A stretch of 35,117 nucleotides of DNA, from contig CANQFM010000032.1 of assembly GCA_947598825.1 (NCBI GenBank), forward strand, positions 1-35,117. The letters are read 5' to 3'. Made by a program: the position numbers and the translations under genes. Below the pieces are notes generated by a model. It was given only the letters and a program-made list of their open reading frames with translations. It was not told where the DNA came from and made no database searches. Shown here piece after piece: positions 5,331-20,060 of the stretch. The first letter of the stretch is position 1; the number at the start of each line of letters is the position of its first letter. The stretch comes from an uncultured Eisenbergiella sp. (GTDB lineage Bacteria > Bacillota > Clostridia > Lachnospirales > Lachnospiraceae).

Positions 5331-5351
5331 GAGGGAAAAGAGGTCTTGTTT

Positions 5352-6110
5352 ATGAGCATTTTGACTTTACATGGACGGACGGCCGTGATCACCGGCGGAA
5401 CGAGGGGGATTGGGTTTGCCATTGCCAGAGCGCTGGCACAGGGCGGCATGCAGGTGGCATTGGTTGGTCAAAGTCTGGAAAGTGCCCACGCTGCACAGGA
5501 AAAGGCGACCGGCTGGGACGTAAGATGTAAAGGGTATGTTTGTGATCTGGCGTATGTGGAGGATATCCTGCCGCTATTGGAGCGAATTTGCACTGATTTT
5601 GGCAGCATAGACGTTCTGGTGAATTGTGCCGGCGTGCTGGATACTTCCAAAATCGGGACACTGACAGAAGAACAGTGGGACAAGGTGTTGGATGTTAATC
5701 TGAAAGGCACCTATTTTATGATCCAGCAGACCGTCCCATATTTGGAAAAGAGTAACGCACCGCGCATCATCAACATTGCCTCCAACGCGGGTCGGATGGG
5801 AGGATTTGAAAACGGGCTCGCCTATACCGCTTCGAAGGGTGGTATGATCGCCCTTACCTATGGCGCGGCCCGCCGCCTGGCAGAAAAACAAATTACTGTG
5901 AACTGCGTGGCGCCAGGCACGATCCTGACTGAGATGGCCAGTCAAGGATATGATGAGCAGACCCGGCAGCGCCTGCTGGCGCGCTTCCCGCTAGGCAGAA
6001 TGGGACGCCCGGAAGATGTGGCGACGGCAGTATGCTATTTCGCAAGTGAAGAGGCCGGTTTTACGACCGGTGCCGTTTTGGATGTGAATGGCGGCTTATT
6101 CATGGGATGA
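5352..6110 (+). CDS. SDR-family oxidoreductase 1 (FabG-like)
   Basis: This is a classical short-chain dehydrogenase/reductase of 252 aa. The NAD(P)-binding TGGTRGIG lies at 14-21, NCAG in the middle, and the catalytic triad is S144, Y158 and K162 (YTASKGG). The C-terminal TTGAVLDVNGG is typical of FabG-like members. It interconverts an alcohol and a ketone on a small substrate, here presumably a sugar or polyol of the glycan pathway. ATG 5352 is preferred over TTG 5346 because AAGAGGT at 5338-5344 lies 7 nt before the ATG and only 1 nt before the TTG. First of three adjacent SDR genes. Confidence 0.88.
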   Translation: MSILTLHGRTAVITGGTRGIGFAIARALAQGGMQVALVGQSLESAHAAQEKATGWDVRCKGYVCDLAYVEDILPLLERICTDFGSIDVLVNCAGVLDTSKIGTLTEEQWDKVLDVNLKGTYFMIQQTVPYLEKSNAPRIINIASNAGRMGGFENGLAYTASKGGMIALTYGAARRLAEKQITVNCVAPGTILTEMASQGYDEQTRQRLLARFPLGRMGRPEDVATAVCYFASEEAGFTTGAVLDVNGGLFMG

Positions 6111-6145
6111 GCTGCCTGCAATAATAACAGAAAGGTAACAGAGAG

Positions 6146-6907
6146 ATGAATAATATGTTTGATCTGACCGGAAAAAAAGCGATCATTGTGGGCGGCGCAG
6201 GCGATCTTGGTTCCGGCATGATGCGCGCCCTGGCAGAAGCAGGCGCTGAGGTCGCGTGTATCGACTTGAGCGAAACGATGCCACAATTGATCAGTGCGTT
6301 GAACGACGACGGGTATAAAGCACACGCTGTCAAGGCGGATATTTCCAGGCGCGACGAGGTGCGGAGTTCCTACCAGACAGCCCTTGAACTGCTGGGCGGC
6401 AAGCTTGATATCCTGATCAATTCGGCAGGGATCCAGCGCCGATATCCCAGCGAGGAGTTTCCAGAGAAGGATTGGGACGAGGTGCTGGAAATTAATTTGA
6501 CTGCTTTATTTTTGTATTGCCAGTTGGCTGCCAATACGATGATCCCGAATGGCGGCGGTAAGATCATTAATATCGCTTCTATGCAAAGTTTTATCGGTGG
6601 CGTGACTATACCGGCCTATGCCGCTGCCAAAGGCGGCGTTGGGCAGTTAACTAAGACACTGGCCAATGATTGGGCAGCCAAAGGGATCAATGTGAACGCT
6701 ATCGCGCCAGGGTATATGGATACACGGCTGAATACCGGCTTGATAGCTAACAAGGTGCGTTCGGCGGAGATCCTGACGCGCATTCCGCAAAAGCGCTGGG
6801 GGAATGGAGATGACCTGAAAGGAATCGCTGTTTTCCTGGCCTCTCGGGCGAGCGATTATGTAAATGGTGCTGTGATTCCGGTTGATGGTGGTTTTTTGGG
6901 CCGGTAA
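6146..6907 (+). CDS. SDR-family oxidoreductase 2
   Basis: This 253-aa classical SDR has an N-terminal cofactor loop VGGAGDLGSG (the usual TGxxxGIG becomes VGGAGDLG), NSAG, a catalytic Ser near 145, Y158 and K162 (YAAAKGG), and ends in the family's VNGAVIPVDGGF. The sequence style resembles gluconate 5-dehydrogenase or 2-deoxy-gluconate 3-dehydrogenase (IdnO/KduD-like) enzymes, which act on sugar acids. It lies 35 nt after SDR 1 and differs clearly from it, so the three SDRs probably act on different steps rather than being a recent duplication. Confidence 0.87.
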   Translation: MNNMFDLTGKKAIIVGGAGDLGSGMMRALAEAGAEVACIDLSETMPQLISALNDDGYKAHAVKADISRRDEVRSSYQTALELLGGKLDILINSAGIQRRYPSEEFPEKDWDEVLEINLTALFLYCQLAANTMIPNGGGKIINIASMQSFIGGVTIPAYAAAKGGVGQLTKTLANDWAAKGINVNAIAPGYMDTRLNTGLIANKVRSAEILTRIPQKRWGNGDDLKGIAVFLASRASDYVNGAVIPVDGGFLGR

Positions 6908-6946
6908 CGCGTAAGAACTCGGTTCCAATAAGGGTGATGAGAAGGA

Positions 6947-7711
6947 ATGAATGAGTTAAAAGACAAAGTGATCGTCATTTCCGGCGGCACAAAGGGTGTT
7001 GGCAGGACGATGGCGGAAGAATGTGCGATCCGGGGCGCAAAAGTGGTGATTGGCGGCCGCGATGAAGCGGCCGCAAAAAGGAGCCTGCGGCTGATACGTT
7101 CTTATGGCAGTGAGGGTATCTTTGTACATACCGAGCTATCCCGCGTGGAGGACTGTCGCGCTCTTTTGGACTGCGCTTATGAGCGGTATGGAAAGGTGAA
7201 TGGCCTGTTCAATTACGCGGGAATTACCCCAATCTCCCCATTGGACAGTTGCGATGTCGATACATTTGACGCTGTAATGGATATCAATTTTCGGGCCGCG
7301 TTTTTCTGCTGCCAACAGGCCATCAAGTACATGCGCATGAGCGGCGGCGGTTCCATTGTCTTGACGGGATCCGCACATGCCTGGGGCGGCCAGAAGGACC
7401 GCGCTGCTTATGCCTGCTCCAAGGGTGTCTTGCGTACGTTGATGGAACACATTGCGCATAATTATGCAGAGGAAAATATCCGCTGCAATTATTTGACGCT
7501 TGGCTGGACGCCGACCGAAGGCGAAGTCGCTCTACGCAAAACACAGGGCGAGACTGAAAAGGAACTGCGGGAACGTGCGGCCGACATCCTGCCCATGCAC
7601 CGCATGTGTGAACGCACCGATTATGTGGAGGCTATTGTTTATCTGCTTTCAGATGCTTCCAGCATGATGACGGGCAGCACCTTTCGCATTACAGCGGGGG
7701 AGTACATTTGA
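6947..7711 (+). CDS. SDR-family oxidoreductase 3
   Basis: This 254-aa SDR has the cofactor loop SGGTKGVGRT near residues 13-22, FNYAGITP in place of the usual NNAG, and the YxxxK pair Y155/K159 (YACSKG). It is the most divergent of the three: Tyr replaces the second Asn of the NNAG motif, and GSAHAWGG replaces the usual serine strand while still supplying a Ser. It probably uses NAD(P)H on a sugar-derived substrate. A GAGAAGG-like site precedes ATG 6947. A 120-nt gap follows it, the largest within this part of the locus. Confidence 0.85.
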   Translation: MNELKDKVIVISGGTKGVGRTMAEECAIRGAKVVIGGRDEAAAKRSLRLIRSYGSEGIFVHTELSRVEDCRALLDCAYERYGKVNGLFNYAGITPISPLDSCDVDTFDAVMDINFRAAFFCCQQAIKYMRMSGGGSIVLTGSAHAWGGQKDRAAYACSKGVLRTLMEHIAHNYAEENIRCNYLTLGWTPTEGEVALRKTQGETEKELRERAADILPMHRMCERTDYVEAIVYLLSDASSMMTGSTFRITAGEYI

Positions 7712-7831
7712 ACGGGATGCAAAAAAAGCGTTGCCCTGATCAAAAGCAAAAACGTATGATGCAGTGTACCCAAGAGTTTTAAGGGCATTTTCGCTTTGCA
7801 GGAAATCATTTGGCAAGGAGTTGGCAAAACG

Positions 7832-9361
7832 ATGAATGTTGACTATATAATCGTACAGGCCGGTGGTAAAGGGACACGGTTGATGCCATTGACCAGAAAC
7901 CGTCCCAAGGCGCTGGTTCCGGTGGATAATCTTCCCATACTGTTCCACTTATTCCAAAAATTTCCTGATAAACGATTTGTAATTATAGCTGACTATCATT
8001 CAGATGTGATGCGCAAGTATCTGGCTGCCTTCGCAAATGTCAAGTTTTTGGTAACAGAAGAACACAGCGCACATGGAACCTGTGCGGGATTGCGCAAAGC
8101 CCTTGCAAAAATCCCGGATAACAAATCGTTTATGCTTATCTGGTCAGATCTGGTGCTGCCGTCCAATTTTAAAATGCCGGATCAAGGGGGAAATTATATC
8201 GGATTATCGAAGGGTTTTACTTGTCGTTGGCGTTATCAAGATGGCAGGTTTGAGGAGATTGCCTCGGCGGACACAGGCGTAGCAGGTTTGTTTGTATTTG
8301 AAAATAAGCACTTGCTGCATAATGTGCCTGAGGGGGGAGAATTTGTCGCATGGTTAGAACAACAGCGGATTACTTTTGATAAGATCCCACTGGAAAAAAC
8401 TCGTGAATATGGTTTAATCTCCATTCTCAGCAGTGAAGAGGACAAGAACGCGTCCTGCCGTTGCCGTGCCTTCAATCGAATCGAGATCAGTGCAGACGGC
8501 AAACGGTTGATAAAGACCGGCATAGATGAGCAGGGTAGGGCACTGGCAGTGCGTGAAAAACAATGGTATCGGTTTGTTGAGACAAAAGGCTTTTCCAATG
8601 TGCCGCGCATTTATAGCTACGATCCCTTTGTTATGCAAAAGATTGAGGGCGGAAACATCTTTACCTACCATCTGGATGGATCACAGCGATATATAATTTT
8701 GGAAAAGCTGATCCGATGTCTGCGTAAACTTCATAGTTTTGGGGAGATGCCGACCGATCAGTTCAGCATCTATAACGCCTATATAGATAAGACTTGGAAA
8801 CGGTTGGATAAAATACGTGATCTAGTGCCGTTTGCAGATCGGGAAAGCATTGTCATCAATGGGAAACAATGTCGAAATGTGTTTTATCATAAAGCAGAAA
8901 TAGAAAGGAGATTTGAAGATTACAAATGCGAGAAGTTCGTATTTCTACATGGTGACAACACCTTTTCAAATCTGCTGCTGGATGAAGCTATGAATCCTAT
9001 ATTGATCGACCCCAGAGGATATTTTGGATATACGGAATTATTTGGCGATCCCGCGTATGATTGGGCAAAGTTGTATTATTCTATCGTTGGCAATTATGAC
9101 CAATTCAATCAAAAACATTTCCAGTTGTCGATCCGGCAAGAGGAAGTGGAATTGTCTGTTCAATCCAACGGGTGGGAGGACATGGAGGAGTCTTTCTTTA
9201 CACTGATTGGCAAAGAAGCGGACAGAGAATATATCAAGCTAATCCACGCCATTATTTGGCTGTCTCTGACGACCTATGCGTGGGAGGATTACGATTCGAT
9301 CTGCGGTGCTTTTTACAATGGCCTGTATTACTTAGATGATGCTCTGTCGGGAGGTTTATGA
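7832..9361 (+). CDS. Bifunctional sugar nucleotidyltransferase / APH-fold kinase fusion
   Basis: This 509-aa protein has two catalytic domains. Residues 1-230 are a nucleotidyltransferase (VQAGGKGTRLMPLTRNRPK with signature K26, then LIWSDLVLP supplying the metal Asp), which makes an NDP-sugar from a sugar-1-phosphate. Residues about 235-509 are an aminoglycoside-phosphotransferase/choline-kinase-like domain with the Brenner motif HGDNTFSN (H373, D375, N380) and metal-binding D393 in LIDPRG. One polypeptide could therefore both phosphorylate and activate the sugar. ATG 7832 has AAGGAG upstream at 7815-7820 (11-nt spacing). The stop overlaps the start of the next gene (ATGATG at 9358), so translation is coupled to the isomerase-phosphatase fusion. 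The substrate is unknown; LicC/LicA-like choline activation is an alternative. Confidence 0.85.
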   Translation: MNVDYIIVQAGGKGTRLMPLTRNRPKALVPVDNLPILFHLFQKFPDKRFVIIADYHSDVMRKYLAAFANVKFLVTEEHSAHGTCAGLRKALAKIPDNKSFMLIWSDLVLPSNFKMPDQGGNYIGLSKGFTCRWRYQDGRFEEIASADTGVAGLFVFENKHLLHNVPEGGEFVAWLEQQRITFDKIPLEKTREYGLISILSSEEDKNASCRCRAFNRIEISADGKRLIKTGIDEQGRALAVREKQWYRFVETKGFSNVPRIYSYDPFVMQKIEGGNIFTYHLDGSQRYIILEKLIRCLRKLHSFGEMPTDQFSIYNAYIDKTWKRLDKIRDLVPFADRESIVINGKQCRNVFYHKAEIERRFEDYKCEKFVFLHGDNTFSNLLLDEAMNPILIDPRGYFGYTELFGDPAYDWAKLYYSIVGNYDQFNQKHFQLSIRQEEVELSVQSNGWEDMEESFFTLIGKEADREYIKLIHAIIWLSLTTYAWEDYDSICGAFYNGLYYLDDALSGGL

Positions 9362-10362
9362 TGAAAAGCTATTTTGAGGAGACGATTCGAATCGTGAGCG
9401 ATTCGATCCGAAGTATTGATCTAAAGGCTTTTGAGGAACTTGTGAGTGCATGCGAGCGGACCCTTCACGGGGGTGGGAAAATTATTGCTTCCGGTTTGGG
9501 GAAAAACGTACCGGTATGTGAAAAATTTGTTGGAGCAATGGTTTCTTTGGGGTTAGATGCCAATTTTATGCATACTAATTCCGCTGTCCATGGCGATTTG
9601 GGTATGGTACATGATAAAGATTTGGTCATTGTTTTGAGCAAAAGCGGGACTACTGTGGAAACAGTGTACCTTGTGGAACAGTTGGTGAAGCGGGGCTGTG
9701 AAATATGGCTGCTGACCTTTAGCCGAGATTGTGCGCTTGCGCAAGAACTGCACCATAGTATTGTACTTACGTTAGAACACGAGGGCGATCCGTGGAATAT
9801 CTTACCAAATCATTCGACAACGCTGAATCTCATTGTGTTGCAGGCGCTCGCTATGACTCTTGCTGAGCGGATGGGCATACGCTTGGAGGACTTCAAACCG
9901 AATCATCCGGGCGGAGCGATCGGTGATCAACTGAGGGGTAAGTGTTCAAAGAAGTTCCTCACGGATAAAGGCATTATCCTACCGCTGTCAGAACTGCCGC
10001 ATACATGGATATTAGATATGGATGGTACGCTTGTGAAGCATAACGGTTATAAGACGGATGGAACGGATTCCTTTTTGGAAGGAGCAAAGGAGTTTCTTCT
10101 TGGTATCGACGAAAAGGATATGATCATTCTGTTGACCTCACGCAAAGAGGAGGCCCGCGAGGAGACAGAAGCTTTTCTGCGAAAAGAAGGAATTCGATAC
10201 AACACGATTCTGTTCAATGTTCCGTATGGGGAACGCGTTTTGCTCAACGATGATAAGCCGTCCGGGTTGAAGACTGCAATTGCGATCCGTAAAAAGCGTG
10301 ATGTAGCGCTACGCATCGAAGTGCTTACGGATGAGGTGCGCACAATGCAAAAAACGGAGTAA
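9358..10362 (+). CDS. Bifunctional SIS-domain sugar-phosphate isomerase / HAD phosphatase fusion
   Basis: The protein has 334 aa. Residues 1-195 are a SIS domain of the KdsD/KpsF/GutQ type: ASGLGKN at 44-50, HGDLGMV at 78-84, SKSGTTVET at 94-102 and NHPGGAIG at 182-189. Such enzymes interconvert ketose and aldose phosphates, for example ribulose-5-P and arabinose-5-P. In KdsD the C-terminus is a CBS pair. Here it is replaced by a compact HAD domain: nucleophile D210 and acid/base D212 in LDMDGTL, LLTSR at 258-262 and LLNDDKPSG with D288/D289. The predicted activity is isomerisation plus removal of a phosphate, complementing the kinase-nucleotidyltransferase encoded just upstream with a 4-nt overlap. 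Confidence 0.87.
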   Translation: MMKSYFEETIRIVSDSIRSIDLKAFEELVSACERTLHGGGKIIASGLGKNVPVCEKFVGAMVSLGLDANFMHTNSAVHGDLGMVHDKDLVIVLSKSGTTVETVYLVEQLVKRGCEIWLLTFSRDCALAQELHHSIVLTLEHEGDPWNILPNHSTTLNLIVLQALAMTLAERMGIRLEDFKPNHPGGAIGDQLRGKCSKKFLTDKGIILPLSELPHTWILDMDGTLVKHNGYKTDGTDSFLEGAKEFLLGIDEKDMIILLTSRKEEAREETEAFLRKEGIRYNTILFNVPYGERVLLNDDKPSGLKTAIAIRKKRDVALRIEVLTDEVRTMQKTE

Positions 10363-14273: not shown

Positions 14274-15131
14274 ATGGAGGATTTGCGAAAGCTTCAGCTC
14301 AAAGAGCTGGAAATACTGGAACAGTTCAAAAAGATCTGTGAGGAACATGCCTTGACTTATTATCTTACTTTTGGAACGCTGCTGGGGGCGGTAAGGCACA
14401 AGGGGTTTATTCCGTGGGATGATGATATTGATGTTATGATGCCAATCCGAGATATGGAAAAGCTGGAACGGATTTATCAGAAGGAAAAATGGTCAGGGCT
14501 TTTTTTGCAGACTCCCAATACGGAACCCGAGGCAGGACTTACTTATTACAAATTGCGCATGGATGGAACAACGCTGTTGGTAGATCGAATGATCAATAAA
14601 GACATTCATCATGGCATCGACATCGATATATATCCATTATATAACGTGCCTGAAAACCGTCTTTTGTGGACGATCCAATATGGAGTGGCGCTGCTCTATA
14701 TGCTCTTGCAAACGGAAGAATCTCCGATAAACCACGGAAAAGCAATACAGATGGCATCAAACATGGTTCTGTCGGTGTGCAAAGGCAAATTCCGCGAAAC
14801 GGTTCGGGACTTCTGCTATCGATATATGGCAAAATATGAGGGATGCCAAACCCTTTATAAAGCTATTCTCAGTTGTAATCCTATGATAGCCGGGCAGCGG
14901 TATCCGCAAAATGTTTTTCAAGAATCAGTTGAGATGTCCTTTGAAGACGGTGTTTTTCTTTTACCCGCCGGTTATGATGAGTGGCTCACGTTGCAATATG
15001 GAAACTACATGGAATTGCCCCCTGTCGAAGAACAAGGTTGTAAACTGGAACATATCATAAAAATGAATACGGATAAATCGTATCTTGAATATAAGGGAAA
15101 GTACTACCTTTGCGGTGGGACAGGACGGTAA
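14274..15131 (+). CDS. LicD-family phosphotransferase
   Basis: The protein has 285 aa. The LicD nucleotidyltransferase-fold core is GTLLGAVRHKGFIPWDDDID at residues 34-53, with catalytic and metal aspartates in WDDDID, followed by the characteristic IDIDIYPLYN. LicD proteins transfer phosphocholine or polyol phosphate from a CDP-linked donor to a glycan. The nearest candidate donor source is the aldolase/kinase/dehydrogenase/nucleotidyltransferase cassette at 15790-20014; no choline-specific LicA/LicB pair is visible. ATG 14274 is preceded by GAGGTGA with a 9-nt gap. It is the last gene of the mid-GC locus before a low-GC, gene-poor stretch. Confidence 0.9.
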   Translation: MEDLRKLQLKELEILEQFKKICEEHALTYYLTFGTLLGAVRHKGFIPWDDDIDVMMPIRDMEKLERIYQKEKWSGLFLQTPNTEPEAGLTYYKLRMDGTTLLVDRMINKDIHHGIDIDIYPLYNVPENRLLWTIQYGVALLYMLLQTEESPINHGKAIQMASNMVLSVCKGKFRETVRDFCYRYMAKYEGCQTLYKAILSCNPMIAGQRYPQNVFQESVEMSFEDGVFLLPAGYDEWLTLQYGNYMELPPVEEQGCKLEHIIKMNTDKSYLEYKGKYYLCGGTGR

Positions 15132-15789
15132 AAACTCTGAACGGAGATATGACCGATGTACGGAGAGTACGAAAAATTAGAACTGTAAAAGATTATGGCC
15201 GAGAGGCACTTCTTACCCAAATGCCAATGAGCGTATAAGGAAATCCTATATACCAAAGCCTTTTGAATCATGCTGACAGAAATTATGATCATCACAACGA
15301 ATATGAATGGTATTCTTATGAGACGTTCTTGAAATGATTCATACAGTTGTTTATTGAAAAGCCTAATTCTCAGTTATACTGGGGGAAATAGGGTAGTTGG
15401 AATGCAGTATTATAAAAAAGTAAAACAGGAAAGATTGCCTGACCAGATGTTCTGTGGTGATCTAATGGATGATCTTTCTTCCGCATGGTGCAAAGCGGAT
15501 GTTCCGGTCGAACCATCAATGGGCGACGGGGGATGCATACTTTAAAAACAGTTTTCTAAGAATTCGAGGCACTGAGTTATCAAAGTCCGTTTCTAAATCT
15601 GAGCCTGAGAAGTGCGGCCGCAAACCTAAGTCGAAGAACCAAGCTGATGTCAGACCCAAACAACCGTGCGGTCGTCTTGGAAAATTTTAAATAATGTGGA
15701 GAGTAAATTTATATATAAACAACGAAAAAACCCAGTAAAATCAATAGGTTATGGCATTTAACAAATGTATAAAATAGTAGGAGAAACTG
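15132..15789. other. Gene-poor AT-rich stretch between LicD and the aldolase cassette
   Basis: These 658 nt contain no gene I can support. Two short overlapping open frames (15354-15545 and 15469-15690) lack ribosome sites. The second encodes a basic tail with EKCGRKPKSK, which may be a relic of a DNA-binding protein or just chance. A -35/-10-like pair (TTGAAA 15354, TATACT 15375) has a 15-nt spacer, too short for a convincing promoter. No inverted repeats or target duplications typical of an intact insertion sequence were seen. The stretch may be a recombination scar or a leader for the downstream cassette. Confidence 0.45.
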
Positions 15790-16575
15790 ATGCTGAATAA
15801 TATTCAACATTTTGCTTTTAATATATGGGATTTTGAATCGGCCAGAGCGGTCATCGATGCGGCGGCATCAATCCAACATGACGTCATCCTGCAGACTTCC
15901 ACGGGGATTTTTAAAACGCTCCCCGCCCGTCCATTTTCAGATTTTGTAAAGTCATATGCGGCCCATCAAGGCATTCATTCATGGCTTAATTTAGACCACT
16001 GCAAGGAAAAGGAGACACTGTTCTATGCAGTGGATAATGGCTGGGACATGGTCATGGCGGATGGTTCATCCTTTCCTATTCAGCAGAATATCGCTTTTAC
16101 GAATGAGGTCATAGCGTATGCCCATGCCCGTGGTGTTTTAGTCGAAGCTGAGGTGGGGCAGGTAAAAGGAATTGAGGATGACGTAATTGTCCGCCAGGAT
16201 ACAATTGCCTCAAGAGGGGATATCGCAGATTTTTTGCATAGAACCGATGTGGATTTTATTGCGGTTGCGTTTGGCAATGCCCACGGGGAATATAAAGTGG
16301 AGCCAGATTTGCGTTATGACCTTGTGGAATATACCACGTCCGTAACGGACAAGCCGTTTGTCGTTCATGGGGGAAGCGGTCTGCCGGATGAGATTTTGAC
16401 TAAATTGATTCGTATTCCAGGGGTTAAAAAACTCAACATTTCCACCGACTTGAAAATGGCATACAAAAGGGGAATTGAAAAAGCCAGTAGATCCTGGTCA
16501 CAACCTATCAATGCATCGAAGATTATTCATGATGAGGTCATGTCCGTAGCTGTATCAAAGATGAGACTTCTTTAA
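15790..16575 (+). CDS. Class II (zinc-dependent) sugar-bisphosphate aldolase family protein
   Basis: This 261-aa protein belongs to the fructose/tagatose-bisphosphate aldolase class II family (KbaY/GatY/FbaA fold). Family residues are present: catalytic D69 and zinc ligand H70 in LNLDHC, VEAEVGQVKG near 118-127, zinc ligand H165 in FGNAHGEYK, zinc ligand H193 in FVVHGGSGLPDE, and the phosphate-binding LNISTDLK. It condenses or cleaves dihydroxyacetone phosphate and an aldehyde. It is shorter than glycolytic FbaA (about 280-360 aa) and heads a cassette with a kinase, a reductase and a nucleotidyltransferase, which points to anabolic use for a surface polymer rather than glycolysis (inference). 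AGGAG at 15779-15783 precedes ATG 15790. Confidence 0.87.
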   Translation: MLNNIQHFAFNIWDFESARAVIDAAASIQHDVILQTSTGIFKTLPARPFSDFVKSYAAHQGIHSWLNLDHCKEKETLFYAVDNGWDMVMADGSSFPIQQNIAFTNEVIAYAHARGVLVEAEVGQVKGIEDDVIVRQDTIASRGDIADFLHRTDVDFIAVAFGNAHGEYKVEPDLRYDLVEYTTSVTDKPFVVHGGSGLPDEILTKLIRIPGVKKLNISTDLKMAYKRGIEKASRSWSQPINASKIIHDEVMSVAVSKMRLL

Positions 16576-16619
16576 TAAGGACAATGAAATAGGGATAAAT
16601 AACGCTGGAGGCAAAAGGT

Positions 16620-18146
16620 ATGAACATATTGGTCCTTAATATGGGCATGAAGAGTATAAGGAGCATAATATTTGATGAAAATGGGAAGAAACTGTCCAGT
16701 GCGTCCAGAACCCTTACCTCTGCCATCGATGATATCCGTGTGGAGCAGTACCCAGGTGAGTGGTGGGATAAAGCCATAGAGGTAATGCGTTCATCTTTCC
16801 AGGATGCGAAAATCCGATCCGTGGATTATATCACGGCTACTACGTCAGCTTCTTGCCTGGTGTGTATGGATGAGGAAGGCAATCCTCTCGGGAACGCCAT
16901 TATGGTTTCTGACAAGAGGGCAATGGAAGAAGCCAGTGAAATAAGGGGCAGTGTTTTTACAGAAGATATAGAAAAGGATACAGGACTCCCTGTATCTGTC
17001 AGTTTAATGCTGCCCAAAATTCTGTGGGTGAAAAGACATGAGTGGGATGTGTTTAAAAAAACACGGTTTTTTTTATCCCCCAACGACTATCTCCTTTACC
17101 ACCTCAGCGGGACCGTTGCCACAGATGAATTAAATGCGGTTAAGTTCCACTATTCCTTCAGTACTTCGTCCTATCCCTCCAGGCTTCTTGAAGAACTTGG
17201 AATTCCGGAGGATAAACTGCCACCGGTTATGAAAACGGGGGAGTGTATGGGAACGATCATGCCAGATGTGGCAGGACAGATCGGATGTAATAATACGGCA
17301 AGGATCGTTGTTACCTCTTATGATGCCATTTGTTCCTTTATTGGCAGCGGTGTATCTGGCGAAGGGGAGGCAAGCGATGTAAGCGGAACGGTAACGGTTT
17401 TCCGCATGCTTAGTAAAAAAAATGAACTTCTTCCGAGTGACCGTATCTATTCGATACCGTTCTATCAGGGAGGTTTTAACATTATCGGGGGGTCCAATAA
17501 TCTTGGCGGAGGTTTGATCGAATGGGTTAAGCAATGTTACTACTCAAAAGAGGAATATCCGTATGAAGTAATGGAGAAAGAAGCTGAGGAGTCCGATATC
17601 GGCGCGAGGGGCATTGTTTTCCTGCCATATCTTCTTGGCGAACGAGCCCCCATTTGGAACGATAACGCGAGGGGCACATTCTTTGGCCTTGAGAGGATGC
17701 ATACGAGAAAGGACATGACAAGGGCGGTTTTTGAGGCTGCTGCGTTTATAGACCGTACAATGATGGAGGCGATAGGGGAAACTACTGCAGACGTAACTTC
17801 CGTTCGCCTTTCGGGAGGACTTGCAAGGGTTAACCTGATATCCCAGATCAAGGCAGATGTTACTGGGAAGGAAGTGATCGTCTTGTCGGAATTTGAAACC
17901 ACCGCGTCTGGTGCGGTGATGATGGTATTAAATGGCCAGGAAGGGATGGCATTTTCAGACCTTTCGAAGAAGTTCTCAAAAAGCAGAATGACGATCCATC
18001 CGGATATGGATAACCATGAGAAATATAATATCGTGTATCAGTTGTTTAAAGAGACGTATAAATCATTAATTCCAATGTTTGACAGGCGGATAGAACTCCT
18101 GGAGGCGGTCAGAAGTTTCAGGGAGACGCAGATTGAGAATTTGTAA
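16620..18146 (+). CDS. FGGY-family carbohydrate kinase
   Basis: The 508-aa length matches xylulokinase/glycerol kinase family members. Recognisable parts are the N-terminal ATPase strand pair (ILVLNMG, SIIFDENG), the catalytic-Asp segment TSYDAICSFIGSGV, FLPYLLGERAPIWN typical of xylulokinase-like FGGY enzymes, and VRLSGGLARVNLISQIKAD with the adenine-side glycines. The first phosphate loop, usually DxGTTS, reads NMGMKS at residues 7-12, an unusual change. The expected substrate is a ketose or polyol. In context it may phosphorylate the product of the aldolase or dehydrogenase. It lies 44 nt after the aldolase with GGAGG at 16605-16609, and 13 nt before the next gene. Confidence 0.87.
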   Translation: MNILVLNMGMKSIRSIIFDENGKKLSSASRTLTSAIDDIRVEQYPGEWWDKAIEVMRSSFQDAKIRSVDYITATTSASCLVCMDEEGNPLGNAIMVSDKRAMEEASEIRGSVFTEDIEKDTGLPVSVSLMLPKILWVKRHEWDVFKKTRFFLSPNDYLLYHLSGTVATDELNAVKFHYSFSTSSYPSRLLEELGIPEDKLPPVMKTGECMGTIMPDVAGQIGCNNTARIVVTSYDAICSFIGSGVSGEGEASDVSGTVTVFRMLSKKNELLPSDRIYSIPFYQGGFNIIGGSNNLGGGLIEWVKQCYYSKEEYPYEVMEKEAEESDIGARGIVFLPYLLGERAPIWNDNARGTFFGLERMHTRKDMTRAVFEAAAFIDRTMMEAIGETTADVTSVRLSGGLARVNLISQIKADVTGKEVIVLSEFETTASGAVMMVLNGQEGMAFSDLSKKFSKSRMTIHPDMDNHEKYNIVYQLFKETYKSLIPMFDRRIELLEAVRSFRETQIENL

Positions 18147-18159
18147 GGGAGAAACGGAT

Positions 18160-19272
18160 ATGAAATCATATCAGCTTTCGATGAATACAAGGACATATTT
18201 TGGCAACAGATGTGTTGAGGAAGCGGTTAAGAAAGAGAAAAATGTTATTGGTTCCAGAACCCTTTTAATAACTACGGGCAGTGTATTAAACGATTTAGGG
18301 TTTGTGGAGGAGTTGGCTGCATGGCTTGATGCAGAAGTATTTTTCTATAATAAGGTAACGGCAAATCCTGATGTTGCGGAAATCAGGGGGGCAATAAAGA
18401 TCGGCAAGGAGAATCATGTTGATTCTGTGATTGGTTTCGGTGGCGGCAGTGCCATAGATGCTGCCAAGGCAGCAGCAATTGGCATCGTTTCTGATATTGA
18501 TATTGAAGAATACCTGCTTAAGGGGCTTACACCTCCTGTTGATACCCTGCCCATCATAGCTGTTCCAACTACGGCAGGAACAGGGGCAGAACTCAGCAAA
18601 GGGGCCATCATATCAAGCCGGGAGAAAAAGATAAAATCCGGTATCCGGGGAGAGAAAGTGGCGCCGACAGTTGCAATAGTGGATCCAACTTATACGTTCA
18701 AGCTTCCTTTGACGGTGACTCTGGAAACTGGTTTTGATGTATTCGCACATGCAGCGGAGAGTTATTGTGCTGTCAAAGCCGATCCGTTTTCCGAAATGCT
18801 TTCTGAGAAATCAATAAAAATTGTCGGAGGGGCATTGCCAAGGCTCGCTAAAAATCTTGATGACCATGAGGCGCGGGAGATGATGAGCTTTGCAAGTCAT
18901 ATTATGGGCTACAATGTGAAAAACATTGGAAACTGCCTGCCGCATCGCTTACAGTATCCAATCGGCGTTGTCACTGAGACAAGCCATGGCGCTGGTCTGA
19001 TCGCACTTTATCCCACATGGATGAAGTACGAAAGCGCAGTGAATCCGACGAGAGTAAAACAGACATTGGACTGGCTCGGATGTGAAGAAGGGAAACCAGA
19101 GGAACGCATTAGAAAATGGCTGGATAGAATGAACCTTGTCCGGACTATTACAGATCTAGGAAATGAGATGAGTGCTGAAAAACTTGCGGATATGGTCAGC
19201 GGCAACCTAAAAAACGATAAATTGGCCGATATAGACAATATTATCGTAACTCTTTATAAGGAGTCCATGTAG
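18160..19272 (+). CDS. Iron-dependent alcohol dehydrogenase family protein
   Basis: This 370-aa group III metal-dependent alcohol dehydrogenase has the nucleotide-binding GFGGGSAIDAAK at 92-103 and VPTTAGTGAELSKGA at 135-149. The four metal ligands D183, H187 (GFDVFAHAAESY), H252 (CLPHRLQYPIG) and H266 (SHGAGL) are all present, so it should be active. It reduces an aldehyde or ketone to an alcohol with NAD(P)H. Relatives include phosphonoacetaldehyde reductases and glycerol-1-phosphate dehydrogenase, but no PEP mutase is nearby, so a phosphonate route is not supported here. ATG 18160 has AAGGGAGAAA just upstream; the frame also opens at 18133 inside the kinase gene. Confidence 0.88.
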   Translation: MKSYQLSMNTRTYFGNRCVEEAVKKEKNVIGSRTLLITTGSVLNDLGFVEELAAWLDAEVFFYNKVTANPDVAEIRGAIKIGKENHVDSVIGFGGGSAIDAAKAAAIGIVSDIDIEEYLLKGLTPPVDTLPIIAVPTTAGTGAELSKGAIISSREKKIKSGIRGEKVAPTVAIVDPTYTFKLPLTVTLETGFDVFAHAAESYCAVKADPFSEMLSEKSIKIVGGALPRLAKNLDDHEAREMMSFASHIMGYNVKNIGNCLPHRLQYPIGVVTETSHGAGLIALYPTWMKYESAVNPTRVKQTLDWLGCEEGKPEERIRKWLDRMNLVRTITDLGNEMSAEKLADMVSGNLKNDKLADIDNIIVTLYKESM

Positions 19273-19291
19273 GACATGGGAGGACGTTATT

Positions 19292-20014
19292 ATGCAGGCA
19301 ATTATTATGGCAGCAGGTAAGGGCAGCAGGCTTGGAAGTTTAACAGAGAATCTTCCAAAGAGTTTATTAAAGATCAAAGGAAAGCGTCTCCTTGATATCA
19401 ATCTTGCTATGCTTCATAGATATGGTATTTGGGATATCACTATTGTAACGGGGTTTCAGGATGAAAAGTTTATTGAAGCGACCAAGGGTATCCCCGGCAT
19501 CACGTTGATTTACAATCCATTCTATGAATTCACTAACGTGATTGGTTCTTTTTACATGGGAATGAAGCAGTTGCATGACAGCTTTATCTATCTCCATGCT
19601 GATACCATATGCGATACCAGTATTTTTGAAGAACTGCTGAGGGCGGATGGTGATATCGTGCTTCCGGTTGATACTAAACCCTGTGATGATGAAGCGATGA
19701 AGGTAAGGCTGGAAGAGGGAAGAATAGCGGAGATCACAAAACATATGCCGACAGAGGCAGCAGCCGGTGAGTTTATTGGTATTGCAAAAATAAAAAAGGA
19801 TGTCATTGATGATCTCAATGCGAGTACAATAGATGTTCTTCGGGATAAGATTTTCACATCCTATTTTGAGGGTGCCCTTCAAAGGGTACTTGATATGAAG
19901 AAGTACGATGCATGCATGATTGAGACGAAAGGCCGCTTCTGGGGCGAAGTTGACTTCTTAGAAGATTATCAGAGAGCGGAGGAGAACATTAGCAAAGAAC
20001 TGGTGGATTTTTGA
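19292..20014 (+). CDS. LicC/PntC-like sugar- or polyol-phosphate nucleotidyltransferase
   Basis: This 240-aa single-domain nucleotidyltransferase has MAAGKGSRLGSLTENLPKSL at residues 6-25, with the signature Arg and Lys, YLHADTICD as the metal-binding Asp segment, and RFWGEVDFLEDY near the C-terminus (second metal Asp). The compact size and VDFLEDYQRA ending resemble CTP-dependent phosphocholine or aminoethylphosphonate cytidylyltransferases. It likely turns the kinase product into a CDP-activated donor for LicD (inference from context). It lies 19 nt after the dehydrogenase, preceded by GGGAGGA at 19278-19284. Confidence 0.87.
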   Translation: MQAIIMAAGKGSRLGSLTENLPKSLLKIKGKRLLDINLAMLHRYGIWDITIVTGFQDEKFIEATKGIPGITLIYNPFYEFTNVIGSFYMGMKQLHDSFIYLHADTICDTSIFEELLRADGDIVLPVDTKPCDDEAMKVRLEEGRIAEITKHMPTEAAAGEFIGIAKIKKDVIDDLNASTIDVLRDKIFTSYFEGALQRVLDMKKYDACMIETKGRFWGEVDFLEDYQRAEENISKELVDF

Positions 20015-20060
20015 TTTTGTTAAATCTATATAATATCGTCTGCCTACGAAAGGGACAGCT

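Follow-up and report, generated by a model that had tools for sequence, protein, structure and literature searches.

In this study, we investigated a four-gene cassette in a 35,117-nucleotide stretch of DNA from an uncultured Eisenbergiella sp., which makes up contig C32 in an assembly of 3.05 Mb and 110 contigs and is hereafter called the window. The four genes lie on the + strand and encode a divergent class II (metal-dependent) aldolase of the KbaY/FBA-like type (15790..16575; PF01116, 223.5 bits, 5e-66), a XylB/gluconokinase-like FGGY kinase carrying both the FGGY_N and FGGY_C domains (16620..18146; 9e-40 and 2e-29), an iron-type alcohol dehydrogenase (18160..19272; Fe-ADH, 2e-40, plus ADH_Fe_C) and a LicC-like nucleotidyltransferase of a separate clade (19292..20014; NTP_transf_3, 8e-14). 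An earlier sequence-only reading had described four tightly spaced genes here, and this agrees with the open reading frames (ORFs), their Pfam families and the intergenic gaps of 44, 13 and 19 bp. The dehydrogenase start at ATG 18160 agrees with close relatives, and an in-frame TTG (18133) stands further upstream. That reading had also placed a LicD phosphotransferase upstream of the cassette; PF04991 was indeed matched at 14274..15131 on the + strand (135.6 bits against a cut-off of 22.6, 4e-39), and we propose this LicD as the user of the donor made by the cassette. Between the LicD end and the aldolase start are 658 bp (15132-15789), in which no ORF of at least 100 amino acids was found. 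The 1-kb bin containing this gap has the lowest GC content of the window (39.7%). According to the Pfam scan, LicD belongs to a polysaccharide locus that spans ~1.2-15.1 kb, immediately before the cassette, and further contains a DegT aminotransferase, a bacterial sugar transferase, three SDRs, a nucleotidyltransferase-APH fusion, a SIS-domain protein, a Wzy-like ligase/polymerase and a flippase. The stretch 5346-10362 of the window, with the three SDR genes, the nucleotidyltransferase-APH fusion and the KpsF/GutQ-like SIS protein, may be a second sugar-activation module.

The residues expected of working enzymes are retained in the first three genes. Among 21 cassette aldolases, D69, H70, H165, H193, N216 and T219 are invariant, and we take these to be the metal ligands and the dihydroxyacetone phosphate (DHAP)-binding motifs of class II fructose/tagatose-bisphosphate aldolases. 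The aldolase fell under the cut-off of all 20 NCBIfam models it matched, including TIGR01859 (192.8 bits, cut-off 343.05) and TIGR00167 (172.4 bits, cut-off 215.6). The kinase was likewise below the cut-off of the XylB equivalog (252.7 vs 380.25 bits), glycerol kinases are among its best solved relatives, and its D235, presumably the catalytic Asp of the FGGY family, is invariant in 22 sequences. In the dehydrogenase, D193, H197, H262 and H276 are invariant, again in 22 sequences, and are presumably the metal ligands of that family.

The closest solved relatives of the nucleotidyltransferase are LicC (1jyk, 4e-16) and PntC (6pd1, 3e-15), and the IspD model gave 21.4 bits, short of the 27 bits of its cut-off. 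When 88 further LicC-like sequences were included in a quick tree, the cassette nucleotidyltransferases formed one clade (43/43, support 99), with long-branch warnings of which one fell on a branch bearing on the cassette group. We take W136 and Y215 of LicC to be aromatic-box residues and Asp218 to be a metal ligand. At the LicC D105 position all 43 cassette sequences have His; the W136 position is Ala in 42 of the 43 as against 3 of the 88 others, and the Y215 position is Gly or Ala in 33/43. The counterparts of E216 and D218 (E219 and D221 here) are retained in 42/43, with one gap each. A LicC-like set that we assign to streptococci has D in 29/29, W in 29/29 and Y in 27/29 at the D105, W136 and Y215 positions, respectively. 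According to PMC6697681, D105 and D192 of LicC lie by the amine of the substrate and Glu216 by the metal; the paper also mentions an aromatic box. Because the pocket positions D105, W136 and Y215 are replaced, phosphocholine is an unlikely substrate of the cassette enzyme.

To survey related loci, contigs of a genome collection were scanned with a four-sequence kinase profile resting on two short peptide patterns. We obtained 48 related loci in 46 assemblies, or 49 with the window, and two assemblies carry two loci each (L071 and L074; L077 and L097); L062, L063 and L064 were left out of the counts as the same records as L096, L100 and L098. The carriers are many Lachnospiraceae and other Clostridia, Selenomonas ruminantium HD4 and other Negativicutes, three Treponema assemblies, one Paenibacillaceae assembly and Cohnella thailandensis. 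The idea that the four genes stand together beyond chance was borne out, as all or part of the set recurs in the 48 loci besides the window, and 42 of these include the aldolase. All four genes exceeded the set length limits in 35/49 loci. The aldolase is present in 43/49 and absent in L080, L084, L099, L102, L113 and L111, the last of which starts inside the kinase. Contig ends cut five loci (L071, L078, L079, L093 and L105), and the kinase is split over two ORFs in L114 and L116. The nucleotidyltransferase is present in every locus whose contig extends far enough, in L072 by DNA similarity only, where ORF picking favoured a longer antisense ORF. Gene order is uniform except in L089 and L114 (kinase, nucleotidyltransferase, aldolase, dehydrogenase) and in L110, where the aldolase comes last, after one extra gene.

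Searches were also made with other baits. With the aldolase at E <= 1e-45, only 4/392 genomes of the order were matched, our own included, and the three others carry the whole cassette in the order aldolase, kinase, dehydrogenase and nucleotidyltransferase. With the nucleotidyltransferase, 51 of 299 genomes of the same family were matched, again including our own, the others being distant (25-47% identity); tblastn with the window proteins found no kinase, dehydrogenase or aldolase relative in 29 loci from other genomes of the family (L009-L037, 1.5-kb flanks). The aldolase is the better search bait of the two. A dehydrogenase search in 41 relatives matched 23, own genome included; apart from the window gene, no match exceeded 34% identity or 140 bits. 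Among 398 genomes of the class of Cohnella, the nucleotidyltransferase profile matched 82, with Cohnella at 348 bits and the next at 174; no kinase or aldolase relative was found in 29 other loci of this class, and L145, L155 and L160 gave a weak dehydrogenase match only (23-29% identity). By eye, the LicC-like nucleotidyltransferases of L138, L140 and L158 adjoin apparent CDP-alcohol phosphatidyltransferases (CDP, cytidine diphosphate). In viral contigs, 32 pattern matches included no relative, and seven plasmid records hold distant nucleotidyltransferases (28-31% identity).

The cassette behaves as one unit. Across 35 loci, the pairwise distances of the four proteins correlate at 0.90-0.95, and those between the cassette and the PF04464 gene of the locus at 0.68-0.75 (20 loci); none of 999 permutations reached any of these values, which are uncorrected for host phylogeny and owe a part to closely related clades. 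A blastn comparison of the whole window with the loci of 12 close relatives, whose flanks vary in length and are short in some, placed the module bounds at 15779..20025 on the + strand. DNA similarity of 65-83% starts at 15779-15809 and stops at 19977-20025 in nine relatives and at the contig end in three, and outside the cassette the DNA matches are LicD stretches of 56-110 bp, in three loci only. Within the window clade, median identity is 84% for the aldolase (10 loci), 86% for the kinase (10), 87% for the dehydrogenase (9) and 85% for the nucleotidyltransferase (8), as compared with 27% for LicD (range 23-88%; ten loci, 45 pairs). Since the DNA similarity ends sharply and LicD diverges next to a conserved cassette, we read the arrangement as fitting a constant donor chemistry combined with varying acceptors.

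The partner phosphotransferases were counted with profiles seeded from the loci, anywhere within up to 10 kb a side and hence not always adjacent. LicD occurs in 15/49 loci and a PF04464-like (CDP-glycerol-phosphotransferase-like) gene in 30, with both in 3 and either in 42; these two families share the use of CDP-activated alcohol phosphates. Neither was matched in seven loci: six of these are contigs 3.2-6.2 kb long (L069, L078, L095, L105, L106 and L108), and the seventh is the Cohnella locus L110. Pfam confirmed PF04464 in 25 of 30 hand-picked neighbour proteins. The background is ~0.01 PF04464 matches per 20 kb (22 matches in ten carrier genomes, ~43.5 Mb) and ~0.05 LicD matches per 20 kb (7 in our own 3.05-Mb genome). 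In a quick tree built from 47 kinase rows (37 with one partner only; L114 and L116 excluded for their kinase in two ORFs), the partner switched at least three times between LicD-only and PF04464-only loci, and the presence of the aldolase needs at least five changes, L111 being excluded from that count. LicD stands directly upstream of the aldolase in 8/12 close relatives, with gaps of -12 to 262 bp; of the other four, L076 has one gene between, L069 is cut, and L078 and L079 have none. The neighbourhood check that had been proposed with LicD thus came out in favour of a phosphotransferase partner, be it LicD or PF04464.

Glycosyltransferases are the commonest families among 213 neighbour proteins, which lie within five genes of the cassette, have at least 180 amino acids and exclude partner-profile matches. 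These were scanned in two halves of 101 and 112 proteins, in which 90 and 124 families were matched; among the 25 commonest families of each half, the range over which transporters were assessed, the single transporter-type family is SBP_bac_5 with one member, and the phosphotransferase system is absent. A predominance of catabolic loci with sugar transporters, which the sequence-only reading had named as counting against its proposal, was not encountered in this range. A GDPD profile matches 13/49 loci. In both cases checked (L085:6781-8115 and L089:6676-8043), Pfam confirmed the fusion of a TagD-like cytidylyltransferase with a GFO/IDH oxidoreductase, and the match of L080 to the same fusion profile is a GFO-GDPD fusion without TagD. 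Adjoining the TagD-GFO-like gene in 10/49 loci is a conserved protein of ~855 amino acids (L085:4214-6781 and nine more); the one member scanned had no Pfam or NCBIfam match, and its consensus holds RPHP and SDAYIGDSGTSVT stretches that by eye resemble TagF-type phosphotransferases. Flagellin domains were matched by 3/112 neighbour proteins, one read as lying in L098 (L098:2689-3510), and L110:5786-8655 is a Maf-type gene; flagellar glycans may be the target of some cassettes. The xylose-isomerase-like TIM barrel PF01261 was matched by 4/101 neighbour proteins.

Other donors were looked for in the same genome. Its LicD matches lie on contigs C7 (two), C24, C54 and C32. On C7 and C24, a LicC-like nucleotidyltransferase with phosphoenolpyruvate (PEP) mutase stands ~8-10 kb from LicD; on C54, a TagD-like match lies ~100 bp from LicD; and C16 has a PEP mutase and a nucleotidyltransferase with no LicD match. 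Since each LicD contig has its own cytidylyltransferase, the data suggest that the cassette would serve the LicD of the window. The absence of PEP mutase claimed by the sequence-only reading held for the window proteins scanned, but not for the genome, where three matches (C7, C16 and C24), all off the window contig, have a nucleotidyltransferase nearby or in the same ORF. On C16 and C24, PEP mutase and LicC-like nucleotidyltransferase share one ORF of 670-674 amino acids. The companion claim on choline kinase stood in that no choline-kinase family was matched among the window proteins scanned, the rest of the genome not having been searched for it, but it overlooked the nucleotidyltransferase-APH kinase fusion at 7796-9361, whose nucleotidyltransferase part matches sugar-1-phosphate enzymes best and LicC weakly (5e-5).

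We consider it likely that the cassette is a self-contained four-gene donor module whose CDP-activated alcohol would be used by a LicD or PF04464-type phosphotransferase for a surface polymer. The conservation of the genes, their co-evolution, the module bounds, the partner families and the changed LicC pocket are computational results, and a CDP-activated alcohol is, as a prediction from them, well supported. In the proposed scheme, a small carbonyl precursor would become an alcohol phosphate through the action of the kinase and the dehydrogenase, and the nucleotidyltransferase would then activate this to the CDP-alcohol; the most likely part of the aldolase is to provide or lengthen the carbon skeleton with the help of DHAP. 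Transfer of the alcohol phosphate to the surface polymer would fall to LicD in the window and to a PF04464-type enzyme in other genomes. We infer that cytidine triphosphate (CTP) is the nucleotide, that the alcohol is a polyol, the order of the steps and the link to this LicD. The CDP-polyol route of the sequence-only reading therefore survives as a conserved unit in polysaccharide-type loci, 42/49 of them with a CDP-alcohol phosphotransferase, but its novelty, the polyol and the step order went beyond the evidence. That the polyol is new as a CDP donor, made by aldol addition to DHAP and interchangeable for two phosphotransferase families across Clostridia, Negativicutes, Treponema and Paenibacillaceae, is a tentative extension which we regard as possible rather than probable. 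If true, this would be a new route to activated alcohols for teichoic-acid-like and capsular polymers, would imply that many gut bacteria contain a building block so far overlooked, and would make the nucleotidyltransferase clade a marker for finding the module. A constant donor with a variable LicD would also help to tell the donor specificity of LicD enzymes apart from their acceptor specificity; the LicD domain is found in the human dystroglycanopathy proteins FKTN and FKRP too.

A number of observations weigh against the donor-module interpretation. Five loci with upstream sequence lack the aldolase, and the genomes of these five have generic aldolases only (best 175-241 bits, as compared with 324-426 for three cassette aldolases). 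Because of those five loci, the aldolase may play an auxiliary part and not be indispensable as the first step. The product of a DHAP aldolase is already phosphorylated at C1, and a DHAP aldolase therefore leaves the role of the kinase unexplained; the kinase must have another substrate, or a phosphatase must come from outside the cassette. In the nucleotidyltransferase, His at the D105 position also occurs in 4 of the 88 other LicC-like sequences, and Glu at the D192 position, found in 43/43 cassette members, is shared by 54/88 others. The kinase was the sole bait, so that every locus has a kinase by selection and divergent members may escape; most related-locus records are metagenome assemblies; and the distance correlations carry the share of host phylogeny given above. 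In the window itself, LicD stands apart from the cassette by the 658-bp gap, and the APH fusion in the same locus leaves another donor for LicD possible.

TagD-like genes are a further point against the interpretation. The TagD-GFO/IDH fusion profile matches 20/49 loci, and the TagD model, which matched all 17 carrier genomes in some way and exceeded its cut-off in 2, gave at least 100 bits in 13/17. Because TagD-like genes occur in the loci and the carrier genomes, the PF04464 partner may use CDP-glycerol instead, and the TagD-like genes of 13/17 genomes together with the APH fusion as a possible kinase weaken our interpretation a little and slightly favour two of the alternatives below. The four carrier genomes with no TagD match of at least 100 bits are our own (86), L100 (66, in a 760-amino-acid protein 32 kb off on the same contig), L082 (42) and L096 (31). 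L100 and L082 keep PF04464 beside the cassette, the copy of L082 being cut by the contig end, and our own genome and that of L096 have LicD and no PF04464 match.

Among other explanations, capture of a catabolic sugar or polyol operon by the polysaccharide locus would account for an aldolase, a kinase and a dehydrogenase, which are classic catabolic enzymes. It is scarcely credible beside a neighbourhood dominated by glycosyltransferases, a sole transporter-type match (one SBP_bac_5 member among the 25 commonest neighbour families per set) and a nucleotidyltransferase that belongs to the set wherever the contig reaches (L072 by DNA similarity). The enzyme could instead be an ordinary phosphocholine, phosphoethanolamine or aminoethylphosphonate nucleotidyltransferase with the other three genes as passengers. 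Points in favour are that no solved proteins stand closer to it than LicC and PntC, that LicC-like nucleotidyltransferases accompany the three PEP mutase matches of the genome, and that an APH-type kinase domain occurs in the window. This is very unlikely, though, given that the four genes co-evolve, that the LicC pocket residues are replaced, that the window proteins scanned include no PEP mutase or choline-kinase family, and that every PEP mutase match is already paired with a nucleotidyltransferase of its own, close by or within one ORF. Activation of a ketose or deoxy-sugar phosphate, with no polyol and with the dehydrogenase trimming the aldehyde substrate of the aldolase, would suit the residues for DHAP use retained in the aldolase and XylB-like kinases, which usually act on ketoses; LicD and PF04464 are, however, best known for alcohol phosphates, and their presence in 42/49 loci makes this reading improbable.

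Two further explanations accept a CDP-alcohol. In the one, the LicD of the window would take a different donor, from the APH-fused nucleotidyltransferase (7796-9361) or from the phosphonate loci elsewhere (PEP mutase matches on C7, C16 and C24), which would suit the 658-bp gap; we judge this distinctly unlikely, since LicD lies immediately before the aldolase in 8/12 close relatives, and the L096 genome, with no PF04464 and only 31 bits for TagD, has its LicD as a cassette neighbour. In the other, the product would be a CDP-polyol that is already known, CDP-2-glycerol or another isomer of CDP-glycerol being the likeliest: the dehydrogenase would reduce dihydroxyacetone, the kinase would phosphorylate glycerol, the nucleotidyltransferase would activate it, and the aldolase would only supply triose. 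The three-gene core corresponds to the reductase, kinase and cytidylyltransferase steps reported for pneumococcal gtp1-3, glycerol kinases rank among the best solved kinase relatives, and five loci do without the aldolase. A dedicated aldolase in 43/49 loci has, however, no obvious need in a triose-only route, and the nearby TagD-like genes point to a separate source of ordinary CDP-glycerol in many cases, so that we hold a CDP-glycerol isomer to be rather unlikely.

In comparison with known systems, the donor module proposed here has a close counterpart in the pneumococcal CDP-2-glycerol pathway (gtp1-gtp3), which was reportedly described in J Bacteriol in 2010 and is said to comprise a reductase, a kinase and a cytidylyltransferase inside the capsule locus. 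The cassette has the same three kinds of step, and differs in its dedicated aldolase, which the pneumococcal pathway is not known to have. In 247 genomes of a genus that we take to be Streptococcus, the nucleotidyltransferase profile matched 100 (best 101 bits) and the dehydrogenase profile 227 (best 222 bits), matches among which the gtp genes were not located. With the LicABC-LicD phosphocholine system, the cassette shares a LicC-like fold by sequence, the catalytic acids and a LicD partner, but it has a changed LicC pocket together with an FGGY kinase, a dehydrogenase and an aldolase, and no choline-kinase family was matched in the window. No publication on this cassette was found in the literature searched, which covered few subscription papers. 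Logic of this sort is known for CDP-2-glycerol, and PMC4873967 documents it for CDP-ribitol. The LicC-like family is also common to the cassette and the PntC phosphonate cytidylyltransferases, for which surface decoration is proposed in PMC6697681; PntC loci differ in that the window is without PEP mutase and the cassette members, among the LicC-like sequences sampled, make up a clade of their own. With TarI/TarJ and mammalian ISPD, FKTN and FKRP, the common feature is a CTP-activated alcohol phosphate moved by LicD-domain enzymes (PMC4873967; on the cassette side as proposed here), whereas the nucleotidyltransferase there is of the IspD type and that of the cassette scores below the IspD cut-off. 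Human FGGY is credited in the same paper with a weak ribitol kinase activity (given there as unpublished data), and its knock-down with ribitol supplied lowers CDP-ribitol (PMC4873967). What appears to be new in the cassette is its combination of enzymes and its separate nucleotidyltransferase clade, from which a CDP-activated alcohol is the predicted product.

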